A model generated the notes under the pieces. The model was not told the origin of the DNA and ran no database searches. It was given only the letters and a program-made list of their open reading frames with translations. Both the position numbers and the translations under genes were made by a program. A DNA stretch of 6,247 nt from assembly GCA_002420085.1 (NCBI GenBank), contig DIHI01000015.1, forward strand, positions 8,303-14,549, in the 5' to 3' direction. Origin of the DNA: Lysobacterales bacterium UBA5700. GTDB taxonomy: Bacteria; Pseudomonadota; Gammaproteobacteria; Xanthomonadales; Xanthomonadaceae. Of this stretch, positions 1-6,247 are shown piece by piece (position 1 is the first letter of the stretch; the number at the start of each line of letters is the position of its first letter).

Positions 1-1401
1 CAGCGTCAGCTCGGCGCCCTCGGTCAGTTCGATCGGATCGCCCTCCGGCCATTCCCGATAGCGGCCACGAAAGGGGCCATCCAGCAGGGCCACGCTGCGT
101 GCATCGGCGGACAGGTTGAGCAGAACCAGCACCCCGTGTTCGCCATCGTCACGCACGAAGGCGAACACCTCGCGCGGCGCCGAGTGGACCACCGGCACCA
201 TGCGCGCTCCGGCTGCGCCATTGCCGAGCGCGCGGATGCCTTTCTTCAATGCGATCAAGTCCCGGTACAGATCACCGATCGGATGCGCCTGCCAGACGAT
301 CGGATCCTTCTCGAAGAACGCCAGTCGCTTCCGATTGCCGGCCTCCTGGCCGTTGTAGATCAACGGAATGCCCTCGCTCAGCACCGACAGCACGATGCCG
401 GCTTCGAGTGCCGGGCCGAACCGCTCGAACTGGGTTGCCTCCCAGGCGTTCTGATCGTGGTTGCTCAGATAGGTCATTCGGTAGGCATCCTGCGGCCAGG
501 CGCTCTCGTTCTCGGAGTAATAGCCGTAGAGCGCGGATACATCGGCCTCGCCGATGGCGATCCGATGGAGGGCGTTGTTCCAACTCCAGGCGTAGCTGGC
601 GTCGAAGGCGCGCCGGTGGACATCGCGGCCCTCGTATTCGGCGAGCATGAAGACCGGCTTGATGGCATCCAGTTCGGTCCGGATGGTCTCCCAGAAGTCG
701 AGCGGCACATAACCGGCGACATCGCAGCGAAACCCGTCGATGCCGACCTCGCTGACCCAGAACTTCATGGCCTCGGCCATGTAGCGGCGCAGTTCCGGAT
801 TGCGGTAATCGAGATCGATGATGTCCGACCAATCCCACCATGGAGTCGGGCGGAAGTCGCCGCCCCAGTCACGCTCGTACCAGTCCGGATGCGCCTCGAC
901 CAGCGGATTGTCCCAGGCGGTGTGGTTGGCCACCCAGTCGAGAATCACCCGCATGCCCAGCCGGTGCGCCTCGGCGACGAATGCCTTGAGATCGTCCAGC
1001 GTGCCGAATTCCGGATTGACACCATAGTAGTCGCGTACCGAGTACGGACTGCCCAGGCTGCCCTTGCGGTTCTGCTCGCCGATCGGATGGATCGGCATGA
1101 GCCACAGGATGTCCGCGCCAAGCGCCTTCAGGCGCGGCAACTGCGCACGGGCGGCGATCAGGGTGCCTTCGGGCGTGAACTGACGGGTGTTGATCTGGTA
1201 CAGCACGGCGGTGCGCGCCCAGTCCGGATGGTCGAACCGGACATAAGGTTCCGGCCGGTGCGTGGGTTGCGTCGCTGTCGGATCGACCGGCGCCACGGTG
1301 CTCGGCGGCGCGATTTCGCGCGGTGCGCAGGCGGTCAGGGCGACGGCCAGCAGAAGGGTCGGCAGCGGGCAGATGCGATCGGCGAATGCGAGCGACGACA
1401 T
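1..1401 (-). CDS. GH13 alpha-amylase-family lipoprotein (3' end missing)
   Basis: This is a glycoside hydrolase of the alpha-amylase clan, expected to hydrolyse or rearrange alpha-glucan bonds. The visible 467 residues run from ATG 1401 off the left edge. Residues 1-25 form a lipoprotein signal with lipobox L22-T-A-C25. The residue after Cys25 is Ala, not Asp, so outer-membrane sorting is plausible. The (beta/alpha)8 barrel starts near residue 60. It has all core GH13 motifs: DWVANH 155-160 (region I), GFRCD 223-227 with nucleophile D227, acid/base E255 in LAEYEG, and NHD 314-316 with D316 as transition-state stabiliser. From about 405 a C-terminal beta-sandwich begins, and perhaps 10-30 residues are missing. 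The motif around residues 98-125 (ILWLMPIHPIGE, then GSPYSV) is typical of small bacterial amylase/maltogenic-type enzymes, but substrate specificity cannot be read. No strong ribosome site is seen (a GAG about 10 nt upstream). It is divergent from the FIST operon with no evident functional link. Confidence 0.93.
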   Translation of the reverse strand, partial: MSSLAFADRICPLPTLLLAVALTACAPREIAPPSTVAPVDPTATQPTHRPEPYVRFDHPDWARTAVLYQINTRQFTPEGTLIAARAQLPRLKALGADILWLMPIHPIGEQNRKGSLGSPYSVRDYYGVNPEFGTLDDLKAFVAEAHRLGMRVILDWVANHTAWDNPLVEAHPDWYERDWGGDFRPTPWWDWSDIIDLDYRNPELRRYMAEAMKFWVSEVGIDGFRCDVAGYVPLDFWETIRTELDAIKPVFMLAEYEGRDVHRRAFDASYAWSWNNALHRIAIGEADVSALYGYYSENESAWPQDAYRMTYLSNHDQNAWEATQFERFGPALEAGIVLSVLSEGIPLIYNGQEAGNRKRLAFFEKDPIVWQAHPIGDLYRDLIALKKGIRALGNGAAGARMVPVVHSAPREVFAFVRDDGEHGVLVLLNLSADARSVALLDGPFRGRYREWPEGDPIELTEGAELTL

Positions 1402-1488
1402 GATGGATCTCGCGAGGGTGACGGACTGCCAGCATAGCCGCCCGTGCGCGATCTGGTTGCCTGCCCCTGCCCGTCGTACCGGTTCCGC

Positions 1489-1515
1489 TCAAGTTTTCTC
1501 CGGCCGGGTCGATAG
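1489..1515 (+). promoter_or_regulatory. Sigma-28 (FliA) flagellar-type promoter
   Basis: The sequence reads TCAAGTTT (1489-1496), an 11-nt spacer, then GTCGATAG (1508-1515). The FliA consensus in enteric and pseudomonad bacteria is close to TAAAGTTT / TCAAGT, N11, GCCGATAA. Both boxes match well (7 of 8 and 6 of 8) and the spacing is exact. Transcription would start near 1520-1523, leaving a leader of about 100 nt before the FIST ATG. This predicts that the FIST and cyclic-di-GMP genes are co-expressed with late flagellar and chemotaxis genes. It is inference from motif match alone; no flagellar genes are in the window to confirm it. Confidence 0.65.
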
Positions 1516-1579
1516 CTGCGGAATGGACTTCCCCACCGGCCATGCCCAGGCACTGCCGACCACCGACGACTGCCGACGC

Positions 1580-1597
1580 GCCGGCCGATCGACCGGC
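1580..1597. repeat. Imperfect 18-bp palindrome in the FIST leader
   Basis: The dyad has the form GCCGG-N-CGATCG-N-CCGGC, symmetric except at one base in each half. It sits about 60 nt downstream of the predicted sigma-28 start and 27 nt before the FIST ATG. It could be an operator or just part of GC-rich leader sequence. There is no direct evidence of a binding protein. Confidence 0.3.
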
Positions 1598-1601
1598 ACC
1601 G

Positions 1602-1614
1602 GCCCTGCCAGGGC
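1602..1614 (+). promoter_or_regulatory. Small hairpin over the FIST ribosome-binding region
   Basis: GCCCTGCCAGGGC forms a 5-bp GC-rich stem with a 3-nt loop. Its right half holds the AGGG that, with the following CGGG, is the only Shine-Dalgarno-like sequence before ATG 1624 (9-13 nt upstream). Folding would partly hide the ribosome site and lower FIST translation. The hairpin is visible in the sequence; the effect is inferred and modest. Confidence 0.3.
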
Positions 1615-1623
1615 GGGTCGGCC

Positions 1624-2784
1624 ATGAAACTGGCGACCGCGACCTACCGCCCCGGCAGCGGCTGGTCGGCCGCCCTGCCGACCGAACTCGACAGCGAGGA
1701 CACCCTGGTGCTGGCCTTCGCGGCGGCCGAATACCGCGATCGCCCGGCACCCTGGGCCGATCTCGCCCGCGCCTTCCCGCGCGGACGGCGGCTCGGCTGT
1801 TCCACGGCCGGAGAATGCCTCGCTGACCGGGTCGGCGACGACAGCATCGTCCTGGTAGTGGCCAGGTTCGAGCACACCCGGCTGCGCCTGGCGCGCACCC
1901 CGATCGCTGCTCCGGAGGCTCCGGACGATTCGACCGAAGCCGGCCACCGACTGGCCACGCAACTGTGCGATCCGCTGGCTCGACTGGCGGGCGTTCTGGT
2001 GCTGTGCGACGGACTGCACGGCAACGGCAGTCGGCTGGTGCAGGCCCTGTGTGCCAACCTGCCGACGGGGGTGCCGGTGTTCGGCGGACTCGCCGGCGAT
2101 GGTGGTCGGTTTCATTCGACCTGGGTGCTGGTCGATGATCACCCCAGGTCCGGCCAGGCGGTGGCGATCGGAATGTACGGCGACGATCTGCTGGTGGGTC
2201 TGGACTCGGAGAGTGGCTGGACCGAGTTCGGTCCGGAACGACGGATTACCCGCGCCGAGGGCAACCGTCTGTATGAACTCGACGGCCGTCCGGCATTGAC
2301 CCTGTACAAGGCATATCTCGGCAAGTTCGCGGCCGGTCTGCCGGCCTCGGCGATGCTGTTCCCGATCTCGATCCGGCATCCGCTGCGCCCGGAGCGGCCG
2401 CAATTGCGGACCGTGCTCGGCATCGATCCGACCGACGGCAGCATGCGCTTCGCGGCCGAGATTCCGACCGGTTACGTGGCCCGACTGGCGCGCTCCAGCG
2501 ACGAACACCTGCTGGCTGGAACCGCCATCGCGGTCAGCGAAGCGCTGTGCCAACGCGACGATCTGGATCGGCCGGGTCTGGTTCTCTCGATCGCCTGTTT
2601 CGGCCGACGGATGGCCTTGGGCGAGCGCGCCGAAGAAGAGGCCGAGACCATCGTCGAAGCGCTGACCGCCGACGATGTCCACATCGGCTTCTACGGCTAT
2701 GGTGAGATCGCCGTGCGCGCCCCTGGCACCGGCATCGAAGTGCAGAACCAGACCATGTCGATCGCCTTTCTCCAGGAGCGCTGA
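1624..2784 (+). CDS. FIST-domain ligand-sensing protein (NosP-like candidate)
   Basis: A 386-residue cytoplasmic protein of the normal FIST_N plus FIST_C length, with no signal peptide or membrane segment. Diagnostic motifs are GCSTAGE at 58-64, GLAGDGG at 155-161, LYELDGRPAL then LYKAYLG at 217-233, CFGRRMALGER at 325-335, FYGYGEI at 356-362 and NQTM at 375-378. FIST proteins sense small molecules; a subset called NosP binds heme and nitric oxide and controls a co-transcribed histidine kinase or cyclic-di-GMP enzyme. The next gene starts 4 nt after this stop and is such an enzyme, so this is probably its sensor partner. The C-terminal motif, usually HNQTM as I recall the family, reads QNQTM here (Q374). 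ATG 1624 is chosen because no other usual start lies in frame upstream and the protein begins directly at the FIST fold. Ligand is unproven; amino-acid or other ligands remain possible. Confidence 0.9.
   Translation: MKLATATYRPGSGWSAALPTELDSEDTLVLAFAAAEYRDRPAPWADLARAFPRGRRLGCSTAGECLADRVGDDSIVLVVARFEHTRLRLARTPIAAPEAPDDSTEAGHRLATQLCDPLARLAGVLVLCDGLHGNGSRLVQALCANLPTGVPVFGGLAGDGGRFHSTWVLVDDHPRSGQAVAIGMYGDDLLVGLDSESGWTEFGPERRITRAEGNRLYELDGRPALTLYKAYLGKFAAGLPASAMLFPISIRHPLRPERPQLRTVLGIDPTDGSMRFAAEIPTGYVARLARSSDEHLLAGTAIAVSEALCQRDDLDRPGLVLSIACFGRRMALGERAEEEAETIVEALTADDVHIGFYGYGEIAVRAPGTGIEVQNQTMSIAFLQER
2774..2778 (+). promoter_or_regulatory. Ribosome-binding site deciding the GTG start at 2789
   Basis: AGGAG lies inside the last codons of the FIST gene, 10 nt before GTG 2789. 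It supports that GTG as the start of the cyclic-di-GMP gene. The in-frame ATG at 2675 would instead add 38 residues that merely read the FIST gene in another frame (arginine-, serine- and proline-rich) and have no comparable ribosome site. Confidence 0.7.
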
Positions 2785-2788
2785 CGGC

Positions 2789-4660
2789 GTGTCTGCTGCC
2801 ATCCACCCGCTGCTTGGCCGGCAACTGCGTCGGGTCGGACTGGATGCCGCCGCGATCGACGCCCTGCCCAAGCCTGTTCGCGATCTGCTCGAACGAATCA
2901 GCCGCAGCTATGCCGATCACGATCGTGAAAGCTATCTGCTGCAACACAGCCAGGACGTCTGCAACCGCGAAATGGCGCAGCTCAATGCCGATCTCAGTGC
3001 CAGTCGGGCGCGCCTGGAGAGCTTGGTCTCGCTGTCGTCCGACTGGGTCTGGGAACAGGACGCCGACCTCAACTTCACCTACATCTCGGCCCCGGTCGAG
3101 CGGGTCGGACTGTGCCTGAACGACGTGCTCGGAACAGGCCGCCGGATCGACGATCTGCCGCCGGTGCCTGGCAGCGACCCCGCCGACTACCTGGCCCGGA
3201 TCGCCGCCCGCCAGCCGTTCCGGGACTTCGTGTACGGCTACCGGCTGCCGAACGGTGAAGTGGCCTACCTGCGGATCAGCGGCGAGCCGATCTTCGACTG
3301 CGGTGAATTCGTCGGCTATCGCGGGGTGGCCAGCGACGTCACCCAGGCCACCCTTGCCGAGCAGTCGGCGGCCCGTCTGTCACGCTTCGATTGCCTGACC
3401 GGGCTGGCCAATCGCGGCGCCTTTCTGGCCGAATTGCAGACCCGCATCGGCCGTGCCCGGCAGCGCCAGCACGGCCTGGCCCTGCTGTTCATCGACCTCG
3501 ACCGCTTCAAGACCATCAACGACACCCTCGGCCATGCGGCCGGCGATGATCTGCTGCGCACCATGGCCGAACGGCTGCCACGGGTGCTCCGACAGGACGA
3601 TCTGCTGGCGCGCCTGGGTGGCGACGAATTCGTGGTTCTCGCAGAGGATGGCGGTGATGGCGACGGGCTGCCGGCCCTGGCCGAGCGACTGCTGAGCCAA
3701 CTGCGCCGACCGGCGACCGTGGCCGGCACCGTGGTCCACGTCAGTGCCAGCATCGGCATCGCCCGCTTTCCCGACCACGGCCATGACGCCGCCACCCTGC
3801 TCAAGAATGCCGATACTGCGATGTACCTCGCCAAGGACGAGGGCAAGAATGGTTACCGCTTCTTCGCGCCTGAACTGGCACATCGTGCCTGCGCCCGCTT
3901 CGCGATGGAGTCACAGTTGCGCGATGCCCTCGACCTCGGTGAATTCCGATTGCACTTCCAGCCGTTGTTCGATCTCGCCACCGGCGTCTGCACCGGGGTC
4001 GAGGCGCTGCTGCGCTGGCAGCATCCCGAACTCGGCCTGCTCGGCGCAGCGCCGTTGGTGACGGCAGCAGCGGCAGCACGGCTGGAAACGCAATTGACCG
4101 CGCACGCTCATGCGCTGGCGATGGCCGAAGTGGCGGGGTGGCCGACATCGCTTGCCGACATGCGCGTCGCGCTCAACATCACCGCCGCCGATTTGGGTGA
4201 TGCCGAATTTGCAGCGCGCTTCGCCGCGCTGCTGGCGGATCATGGATTGCCCGCGTCGCGCTTCACGCTCGAGCTCACCGAACAGGCGATGCTGGCGAGT
4301 CCGGACAGCGCCGCCGACCAATTGGCGACGTTGCGCGCGTCGGGGTGCCGCATCGCGGTCGATGATTTCGGCACGGGCTATTCCTCGCTGGCGCTTCTCG
4401 CCCAGTTACCGCTCGATTATCTCAAGATCGACAGCGGCTTTGTTCGCGCCATGGACGCGTCGGAACGCGACCGCATTGTGGTGCGCGCCATCGTGGAACT
4501 TGCCCGCGCGCTGGGACTAAGCGTGATTGCCGAAGGGGTGGAGACCCAGGAACAGCGCGCGGTGCTCGCCGACCTGGGCGTCGATTATTGGCAGGGCTTT
4601 CTGGGGTCCGATCCGGTGGCGGGAGATGCGCTGGCGATAATTAGGGACAGTCCCCAATGA
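2789..4660 (+). CDS. PAS-GGDEF-EAL cyclic-di-GMP synthase/phosphodiesterase
   Basis: A 623-residue cytoplasmic protein from GTG 2789, four bases after the FIST stop. Residues 1-78 are a helical HPLLGRQLRR...YLLQHSQ...EM region, likely a dimerising or partner-docking helix. A PAS domain spans about 79-188 (SDWVWEQD, then GYRGVASDVT). GGDEF spans about 197-360: metal ligand D236, GGDEF 277-281 intact, and an RxxD product-inhibition site R268/D271 five residues before it. EAL spans about 375-617: E405-A-L, N463, E495, D525-D526, K546, E582 and Q602 are all present. Both activities therefore look possible, and which dominates cannot be told. The stretch 417-435 is alanine-rich where the family usually has FIPLAEE-like sequence. 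Composition and style change near residues 400-430, so the gene may be a recombinant or an assembly chimera. The last residues, IIRDSPQ, are read from the inverted repeat at 4636-4711. Confidence 0.88.
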   Translation: MSAAIHPLLGRQLRRVGLDAAAIDALPKPVRDLLERISRSYADHDRESYLLQHSQDVCNREMAQLNADLSASRARLESLVSLSSDWVWEQDADLNFTYISAPVERVGLCLNDVLGTGRRIDDLPPVPGSDPADYLARIAARQPFRDFVYGYRLPNGEVAYLRISGEPIFDCGEFVGYRGVASDVTQATLAEQSAARLSRFDCLTGLANRGAFLAELQTRIGRARQRQHGLALLFIDLDRFKTINDTLGHAAGDDLLRTMAERLPRVLRQDDLLARLGGDEFVVLAEDGGDGDGLPALAERLLSQLRRPATVAGTVVHVSASIGIARFPDHGHDAATLLKNADTAMYLAKDEGKNGYRFFAPELAHRACARFAMESQLRDALDLGEFRLHFQPLFDLATGVCTGVEALLRWQHPELGLLGAAPLVTAAAAARLETQLTAHAHALAMAEVAGWPTSLADMRVALNITAADLGDAEFAARFAALLADHGLPASRFTLELTEQAMLASPDSAADQLATLRASGCRIAVDDFGTGYSSLALLAQLPLDYLKIDSGFVRAMDASERDRIVVRAIVELARALGLSVIAEGVETQEQRAVLADLGVDYWQGFLGSDPVAGDALAIIRDSPQ

Positions 4661-4711
4661 GCTACTTTTGCCACCGTCAGCATGGCTTATTGGGGACTGT
4701 CCCTAATTATC
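4636..4711. repeat. REP/REPIN-type inverted repeat between convergent genes
   Basis: Two perfect 23-nt inverted arms, 4636-4658 and 4689-4711, flank a 30-nt middle. Each arm is built on the near-palindrome GGGACAGTCCCC followed by AAT, with an AT-rich outer end (ATAATTA). The pairing continues inward with only a few mismatches to about 4664/4683. Repeats with this GGGGACTGTCCC core are, as I recall, common in many bacteria and associated with IS200-like REP-associated tyrosine transposases; no transposase is in the window. The left arm encodes the last seven residues (IIRDSPQ) of the cyclic-di-GMP protein, with TGA straddling its inner edge. The right arm, read on the other strand, gives the last two Mfd codons and its TAG stop. 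The element is seen directly; the REP family assignment is from memory. Confidence 0.8.
4636..4711. terminator. Possible bidirectional terminator formed by the inverted repeat
   Basis: Transcripts of either strand would fold the repeat into a stem of at least 23 bp with a short internal extension, between two convergent genes. This is the place for a shared terminator or an RNA 3'-end protector. However, the plus-strand transcript follows with only UUUCUG and the minus-strand one with no U run, so efficient intrinsic termination is doubtful. Confidence 0.35.
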
Positions 4712-6247
4712 TTTCTGCCGCGCCAGCTTCGCCAGCCCGCTCGACAATTGCACCGCGCCATTGAGCCGCGCCGCCGCGCTTGCCCAATTGCCGCTGACCG
4801 ACAGCTTGTTGTCGGGGCGGATGCGGGCGCGGTCTTTGAGGCGCTCGACATAGGCGAGCAGCCCCGGCACATTGGCAAAGCGGTCGCCGTGGAAACTGAC
4901 CAGCGCGCCCTTGGCCCCGATATCCAGCTTGGAAATCCCCGCCGCCTTGGCGTTGCCCTTCACTTCCATCAGCAAGATCAGGTTCGCTGTTTCGGGCGGC
5001 AGCGGGCCAAAGCGGTCGATCAGTTCGGCGGCAAAGGCGTCCAGCCCGGCGCGCCCCTCGGCCTCGTTGATGCGCCGATACAGCGCCATGCGCAGCGGCA
5101 GGTCGGGGACATAATCCTCCGGAATCAGGATCGGCGCGTCGACCGTAATGACCGGCGACATGGCCTCGCGCGGCGGGGCGAGGCCTGCGCCCTCCGCCTT
5201 GGCCGCCAATATCGCCTCTTCCAGCATCGACTGGTAAAGTTCGAACCCGACCTCGCGGATATGGCCCGACTGTTCATCACCGACCAGATTGCCCGCGCCG
5301 CGAATGTCGAGATCGTGGCTGGCCAGCTGGAACCCGGCACCCAGCGTGTCGAGATCGCCGAGCAGCTTCAGCCGCTTTTCCGCCGTGTCGGTAATCACAC
5401 CATTTTCGGGCGTGGTCAGATAGGCATAGGCGCGTGTCTTGGACCGCCCGACGCGCCCGCGCAGCTGATACAGCTGTGCCAGCCCGAACCGGTCGGCGCG
5501 ATGGATGACCAAAGTGTTGGCGCTGGGAATGTCGAGCCCGCTTTCGACGATGGTGGTTGATACCAGCACATCATATTGCCGGTCATAAAAGGCGCCCATC
5601 CGCTCTTCGACCTCGCCCGGGGCCATTTGCCCGTGCGCGACGACATATTTGACCTCGGGCACGCGGGTGCGCAGATATTCCTCGATATCGGGCAGATCCT
5701 TGATGCGCGGCGTTACAAAAAAGCTCTGTCCGCCGCGGTCATGTTCGCGCAGCAAGGCTTCGCGGATCACCACCGGATCCCACGGGCTGACATAGGTGCG
5801 CACCGCCAGCCGGTCGACCGGCGGCGTTTGAATGACGCTGAGCTCGCGCAGCCCCGACATCGCCATTTGCAGCGTGCGCGGGATCGGCGTCGCGGTCAGC
5901 GTCAGCACATGAACGTCGGTCTTGAGCTGTTTCAGCCTTTCCTTGTGGACGACGCCGAAGCGCTGTTCCTCGTCGACGATGACCAGCCCCAGCCGCTTGA
6001 ATTCGACCGATTTGGCAAACACCGCGTGGGTGCCGACGACAATGTCGATACTGCCATCGGCCAGCCCGTCGCGCGTCTTCTGCGCCTCGGCGGCGGGCAC
6101 CAGCCGCGACAGGCGACCAAGGTTGACGGGAAAGCCGCGAAACCGGTCGACGAAATTGCTGTAATGCTGGCGCGCCAGCAGCGTCGTCGGGCACACGACC
6201 GCCACCTGCATTCCTGCCATCGCCGCGACGAACGCCGCGCGCAGCGC
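4703..6247 (-). CDS. mfd: Transcription-repair coupling factor Mfd, C-terminal part
   Basis: The 514 visible residues are the C-terminal part of a protein usually about 1,150 long; the gene enters from the right edge just after the expected Walker A motif (first residues ALRAAFVAAM). Mfd is a superfamily 2 DNA translocase that removes RNA polymerase stalled at DNA lesions and recruits UvrA. Motifs: PTTLLARQH 20-28 (Ia), DEEQ 92-95 (Walker B), TATPIPRTL 118-126 (III), a VSTTIVESGLDIP motif 229-241 (V), QLRGRVGRS 261-269 (VI), then the TRG segment about 303-328 (HDLDIRGAGNLVG) that couples ATP use to movement. From about 363 the regulatory C-terminal domain follows, ending LAKLARQKDN. The wording of these motifs and the codon use suggest an alphaproteobacterium, perhaps a sphingomonad. 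The TAG stop (4703-4705) lies within the inverted repeat, which may have altered the last residues. It is convergent with the cyclic-di-GMP gene, separated by 42 bp. Confidence 0.96.
   Translation of the reverse strand, partial: ALRAAFVAAMAGMQVAVVCPTTLLARQHYSNFVDRFRGFPVNLGRLSRLVPAAEAQKTRDGLADGSIDIVVGTHAVFAKSVEFKRLGLVIVDEEQRFGVVHKERLKQLKTDVHVLTLTATPIPRTLQMAMSGLRELSVIQTPPVDRLAVRTYVSPWDPVVIREALLREHDRGGQSFFVTPRIKDLPDIEEYLRTRVPEVKYVVAHGQMAPGEVEERMGAFYDRQYDVLVSTTIVESGLDIPSANTLVIHRADRFGLAQLYQLRGRVGRSKTRAYAYLTTPENGVITDTAEKRLKLLGDLDTLGAGFQLASHDLDIRGAGNLVGDEQSGHIREVGFELYQSMLEEAILAAKAEGAGLAPPREAMSPVITVDAPILIPEDYVPDLPLRMALYRRINEAEGRAGLDAFAAELIDRFGPLPPETANLILLMEVKGNAKAAGISKLDIGAKGALVSFHGDRFANVPGLLAYVERLKDRARIRPDNKLSVSGNWASAAARLNGAVQLSSGLAKLARQKDN

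Follow-up and report, generated by a model that had tools for sequence, protein, structure and literature searches.

Chimeric contigs are a described product of metagenome assembly. The MetaVelvet-DL paper (PMC8171044), in the section consulted here, addresses the "chimeric nodes" of assembly graphs, and on its benchmark data chimeric contigs total 12.5 to 51.6% of the assembly length. The Jorg paper (PMC8172020), likewise in an excerpt, states that paths in k-mer graphs may match no real genome. Here, we analyzed a stretch of 6,247 nucleotides of a metagenome-assembled genome (below, the window, meaning this whole stretch), in which the original prediction had located a two-genome junction inside the EAL motif of a cyclic-di-GMP gene. 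We found that the window does join two genomes inside the EAL motif. The join was in all probability made by an assembler, which would have linked the genome's own bacterium (up to about position 4020) to a likely Sphingopyxis-like bacterium (from about position 3995) at a short shared stretch of EAL coding sequence.

The window corresponds to G000:C134:8303-14549 and is a gap-free piece of the scaffold C134, flanked by N runs at C134 positions 8137-8302 and 14550-14651 (L084). Its features are collected in Table 1. The product of the FIST-domain gene matched the NCBIfam model NosP only weakly (71 bits, with a cut-off of 450). The stop codon of this gene lies 4 bases upstream of the GGDEF-EAL start at 2789, and the two genes probably form one operon.

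Table 1. Features of the window, in window positions
Feature	Position	Strand	Evidence
Left part, genome's own bacterium	1..3994		Tetranucleotide composition
Alpha-amylase family glycoside hydrolase gene, 3' end past the window edge	1..1401	-	PF00128, E 1e-36
FIST-domain protein gene	1624..2784	+	PF08495, E 1e-46; PF10442, E 7e-26
N-terminal two thirds of the left parent's GGDEF-EAL gene	2789..4020	+	P0002 identity 411/413; GGDEF domain, E 3e-48
Junction zone, coding sequence compatible with both parents	3995..4020	+	4000-4020 is the exact 21-mer opening contig C44
C-terminal part of the gene for a 385-aa sphingomonad-type EAL protein	3995..4660	+	Window residues 403-623 are the last 221 of P0121
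Perfect inverted repeat, right parent	4636-4658 and 4689-4711 (arms)		23-base arms, loop of 30
Right parent's mfd gene, 3' part; 5' part beyond the N gap	4703..6247	-	TIGR00580, E 1e-185

The composition of the DNA changes along the window. The prediction had counted 49 GATC tetranucleotides in positions 1-4040 and 12 in the rest of the window, and both counts proved exact (12.1 per kb in 1-4040 vs 5.4 per kb in 4041-6247). By itself, this difference in density is modest (binomial p = 0.010). As a locator of the junction, GATC density was rejected, because its best single change point lies at 3289 and not at 4040. The looser codon use described for the right part was also borne out, since ATT, TTT, TTG and AAA together rise from 24/1264 on the left to 39/720 on the right (Fisher p = 4e-5).

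A tetranucleotide classifier, trained on 11 of the genome's own loci versus four sphingomonad loci (the regions of their genomes that are homologous to the right part, so that homology contributes to the score), found its best switch at window 4142. In half-overlapping 500-base steps, scores stayed positive through the step ending at 4198 and were negative throughout from the next step, which starts at 3949. Pieces of 2 kb scored +160 and +173 in the left part of C134 and -128, -118 (a 1.5-kb piece) and -102 in the right part. As references, 2-kb chunks of the same genome, with their own contig left out, had a median of +138 (2 of 107 below zero, the lowest at -10.6), and the sphingomonad loci, each left out in turn, scored -96 to -165. 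A measure without the sphingomonad reference also singled out the right part: the left part lies at a distance of 0.20 to 0.21 from the genome mean, which is ordinary among 91 background chunks, and only 3 to 4 of the 91 are further from that mean than the three right-hand pieces. Beyond the N gap to the left of the window, C134:1-8136 has the same composition as the left part, while to the right the sphingomonad-like composition continues to the end of C134. Elsewhere in the genome, an unusual tetranucleotide make-up was also seen in L112 (G000:C12, about 1-8800) and L113 (G000:C13, about 10001-15400); these two stretches are possibly mobile or foreign DNA.

The two halves of the composite protein were then considered separately, a check that the original prediction had proposed, and they led to two different proteins in the database: P0002 for the left half and P0121 for the right half. 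P0002, encoded on a 30,175-base contig and represented by 4 member sequences, differs from the first 413 residues of the window's frame only at residues 198 and 343. It diverges after residue 413, with 37% identity over residues 418-610. In a 149-genome sample of the left parent's family (the window's own genome included), other genomes reached at most 48% identity, over part of the protein, among the matches listed. Among named genome contigs, the best relative of the whole frame was 44% identical (L004, a Betaproteobacteria metagenome-assembled genome; best 80 of 592).

The window's genome shares its phylum with the sphingomonads and belongs to a different class, which we presume to be the Gammaproteobacteria in GTDB's arrangement. 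The protein style had been described as shifting from gammaproteobacterial to sphingomonad-like; the second half of this statement stood, since the right part is sphingomonad, and for the left part the label follows only from the difference in class. The alpha-amylase gene was considered as a taxonomic marker of the left half and discarded. It gives no support to "gammaproteobacterial" because the named organisms among its relatives are mostly alphaproteobacterial (Amphiplicatus, Henriciella, Caulobacterales, Hyphomonadaceae, Parvularculaceae, Allosphingosinicella), with a single one from the Xanthomonadales (120 matches listed).

On the right side, P0121 has 385 residues. Its last 221 reproduce window residues 403-623 exactly, and immediately before residue 403 the two sequences part. 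P0121 is encoded on an 18,440-base contig (right end 100%), and the next protein, P0122, on a 14,001-base contig (99%). None of the 119 proteins listed for the right part (P0121-P0239) that had enough aligned residues exceeded 33% identity to window residues 201-395. The organism names among the matches listed for this part were Sphingopyxis, from 85% downward, except for one "Pseudomonadota bacterium". The right parent is therefore likely Sphingopyxis-like, and the sphingomonad genus that we used for comparison (80 genomes) is probably Sphingopyxis itself or a near relative.

All 80 genomes of this genus gave some match, and 20 of them matched in one piece across the EAL gene, the spacer and mfd. 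These one-piece matches begin at window 3992-3995, for a query that began at 3985. The DNA of the true right parent was not found among the 80 genomes, the best identities being 79% for the stretch as a whole and 87% for mfd alone. In a 397-genome sample of the family, every genome had some match and, among the matches listed, query base 1 or 2 was reached only by four genomes of the genus. When the whole of C134 was used as the query, the loci of G725, G745, G643 and G214 were colinear with it across both N gaps to the right of the window. Homology to these four begins at window 3958, 3975, 3994 and 3995, and the two earlier starts lie in the conserved domain on the left side of the join. The mfd neighbor named in the original prediction is real; it is 88% identical to the mfd of G214, and the TRCF (Mfd) domain occurs twice in the genome, on C51 and on C134. 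The right side has an ordinary sphingomonad chromosomal gene order. At the far end of the scaffold, the last 41 to 66 bases of C134 (18546-18611, L084) show a reverse-orientation match of 76 to 93% to mfd sequence in the four sphingomonad loci, perhaps because they hold the helicase motif conserved in a related gene, for example recG.

Because residues 1-413 match P0002 and residues 403-623 match P0121, the switch was placed at about 3995-4020, which is within the interval of 3985 to 4095 given beforehand. In the protein comparison, it falls in the overlap of the two matches, that is, at residues 403-413 in the conserved EAL motif; in the DNA comparison, it falls at about 3992/3995 to 4020. 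This agrees with the earlier claim that the change occurs at EALLRWQHPELG (residues 405-416) with the frame intact. The hybrid frame is intact because both parents encode the same motif at the join. A single genome whose composition changes naturally, with no junction and an unusual protein of one lineage, would be compatible with the modest size of the GATC change when taken alone, and with a GGDEF and an EAL domain above their Pfam cut-offs in one frame. We give this explanation next to no probability, as the two parts of the frame are 99 to 100% identical to two proteins that continue differently, and as the other end of the left gene lies on another contig. The co-occurrence of both Pfam domains in the composite frame is no evidence on any real protein.

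The lost end of the left gene was found on contig C44 of the same metagenome-assembled genome, where C44:2-685 encodes residues 405-632 of P0002 at 100%. C44 opens with CGAGGCGCTGCTGCGCTGGCA, which is identical to window 4000-4020, and the very next base differs. In the 3.44-Mb genome, this 21-mer is present only at C134:12302 and C44:1. Among exact overlaps of 18 to 120 bases (38 ends of 21 contigs), the start of C44 was the sole real match, those of the C6 ends being Ns that match N runs. The chance of a contig end falling on the exact fork base is about 1 in 10,000 (334 ends of 167 contigs, 3.44 million bases), even without the further requirement that the matching gene end lie on that contig. 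An opening 21 bases ahead of the divergence is expected for a contig left by a fork in a de Bruijn graph, and this one contig end suggests an assembly step with k = 21. The prediction had left the choice between a recombined hybrid gene and an assembler join at a conserved stretch. The halves come from different genomes, and the correct continuation exists elsewhere and starts at the fork (C44:1-21 and C44:2-685); the assembler join is strongly favored because the left gene continues on C44, which opens with the shared 21-mer.

Natural recombination would mean that a minority of the left population carries a cross-class hybrid cyclic-di-GMP enzyme and an imported sphingomonad mfd, after an exchange within the EAL motif that relied on a shared run of less than about 30 bases. 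The join does preserve the frame and links homologous positions, and both parents occur whole, as would be expected in a mixed population. However, recombination leaves unexplained why C44 starts exactly at the pre-fork 21-mer, and at least 6.3 kb would have to be imported with an anchor on one side only, likely shorter than 30 bases. The sphingomonad gene order and composition up to the scaffold end also speak against it, as does the fact that the hybrid is listed once only. Indeed, the hybrid protein (P0001) is one sequence on one contig, the window's own, whereas each parent is whole on another contig; it was not found independently assembled more than once. The original prediction had named a database protein colinear over all 623 residues as what would refute a chimera, and none was present, besides P0001, among the proteins listed. 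The 119 others (best 120 of 7,949) share 28 to 38% identity with the window in residues 418-610, and residues 201-355 are closer to the window than this region in all 119, as are residues 1-200 in 118 of them. We therefore regard recombination as very unlikely, and a real hybrid enzyme is not likely to exist.

For the assembler-made join, we propose the following course. Both bacteria would have been present in one sample, and their paths in the k-mer graph would have converged on the conserved VEALLRWQ codons and diverged again after one further base. Ten loci of eight sphingomonad genomes were compared with the window for the shared run that ends at 4020. Only three of the genomes share at least 21 bases (29, 27 and 26); the run is 20 bases long in a fourth and 13 in the remaining four. 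Extrapolating from these relatives, the DNA shared by the true parents at the junction likely spans 21 to 29 bases, and a run like that of the three closest (26 to 29 bases) would be enough for a small-k de Bruijn graph to merge the paths. The assembler would have taken the wrong exit from the left path, leaving the correct exit to open a contig of its own, 21 bases ahead of the fork. A scaffolder would then have attached further sphingomonad pieces, and the uneven lengths of the N gaps suggest paired-end scaffolding. Finally, the binner would have placed the scaffold with the left bacterium.

A perfect inverted repeat lies where the EAL gene ends, ahead of mfd in window order. In the whole genome, ATTGGGGACTGTCCC of this repeat was found only at its two arm positions, and the 12-base core of the repeat did not turn up in any of 9 loci from 8 relatives. 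The last residues of the EAL frame, IIRDSPQ, are encoded by the repeat; this tail is present in P0121 and P0122 and absent from P0123 and P0124. Such a repeat between the EAL gene and mfd could be taken as a sign of a real mobile insertion, in which a sphingomonad segment would have entered the left bacterium and would end in the EAL gene. It is, however, located about 620 bases inside the right half, away from the junction, and the right half has sphingomonad chromosomal gene order. Neither an integrase nor a transposase was found among the four genes scanned with Pfam, and a mobile insertion does not predict the start of C44 at the fork. This explanation thus appears exceedingly unlikely, and an assembler-made join remains our reading of the locus.

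The window should consequently not be treated as the DNA of a single organism. Inferences drawn across window base 4000, be they on gene neighborhood, horizontal transfer, domain shuffling, a hybrid enzyme or the location of mfd, are very likely wrong. About 6.3 kb of the bin (C134 12302-18611, two N gaps included) appears to be sphingomonad, in a bin listed at 0.4% contamination. The locus also offers a way to check for such joins without reads, which is to search the bin itself for a contig opening with the junction k-mer and bearing the lost gene end.

Compared with GGDEF-EAL cyclic-di-GMP proteins (PF00990, PF00563), both the left parent P0002 and the window's frame carry the two domains. 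Unlike these proteins, the window's frame is composite, and the right parent's 385-residue protein has LGGPRF where the left parent has LGGDEF. There is also a parallel with the interspecies chimeric contigs of de Bruijn metagenome assembly, in which, as far as the excerpts cited above describe them, the paths of two species likewise have a k-mer node in common, from which the assembler takes the wrong exit. The mock-community example in the excerpt of PMC8172020 joined close relatives, whereas the parents of the window belong to different classes. In addition, the correct exit is visible here as a separate contig, C44, which opens with the shared 21-mer.
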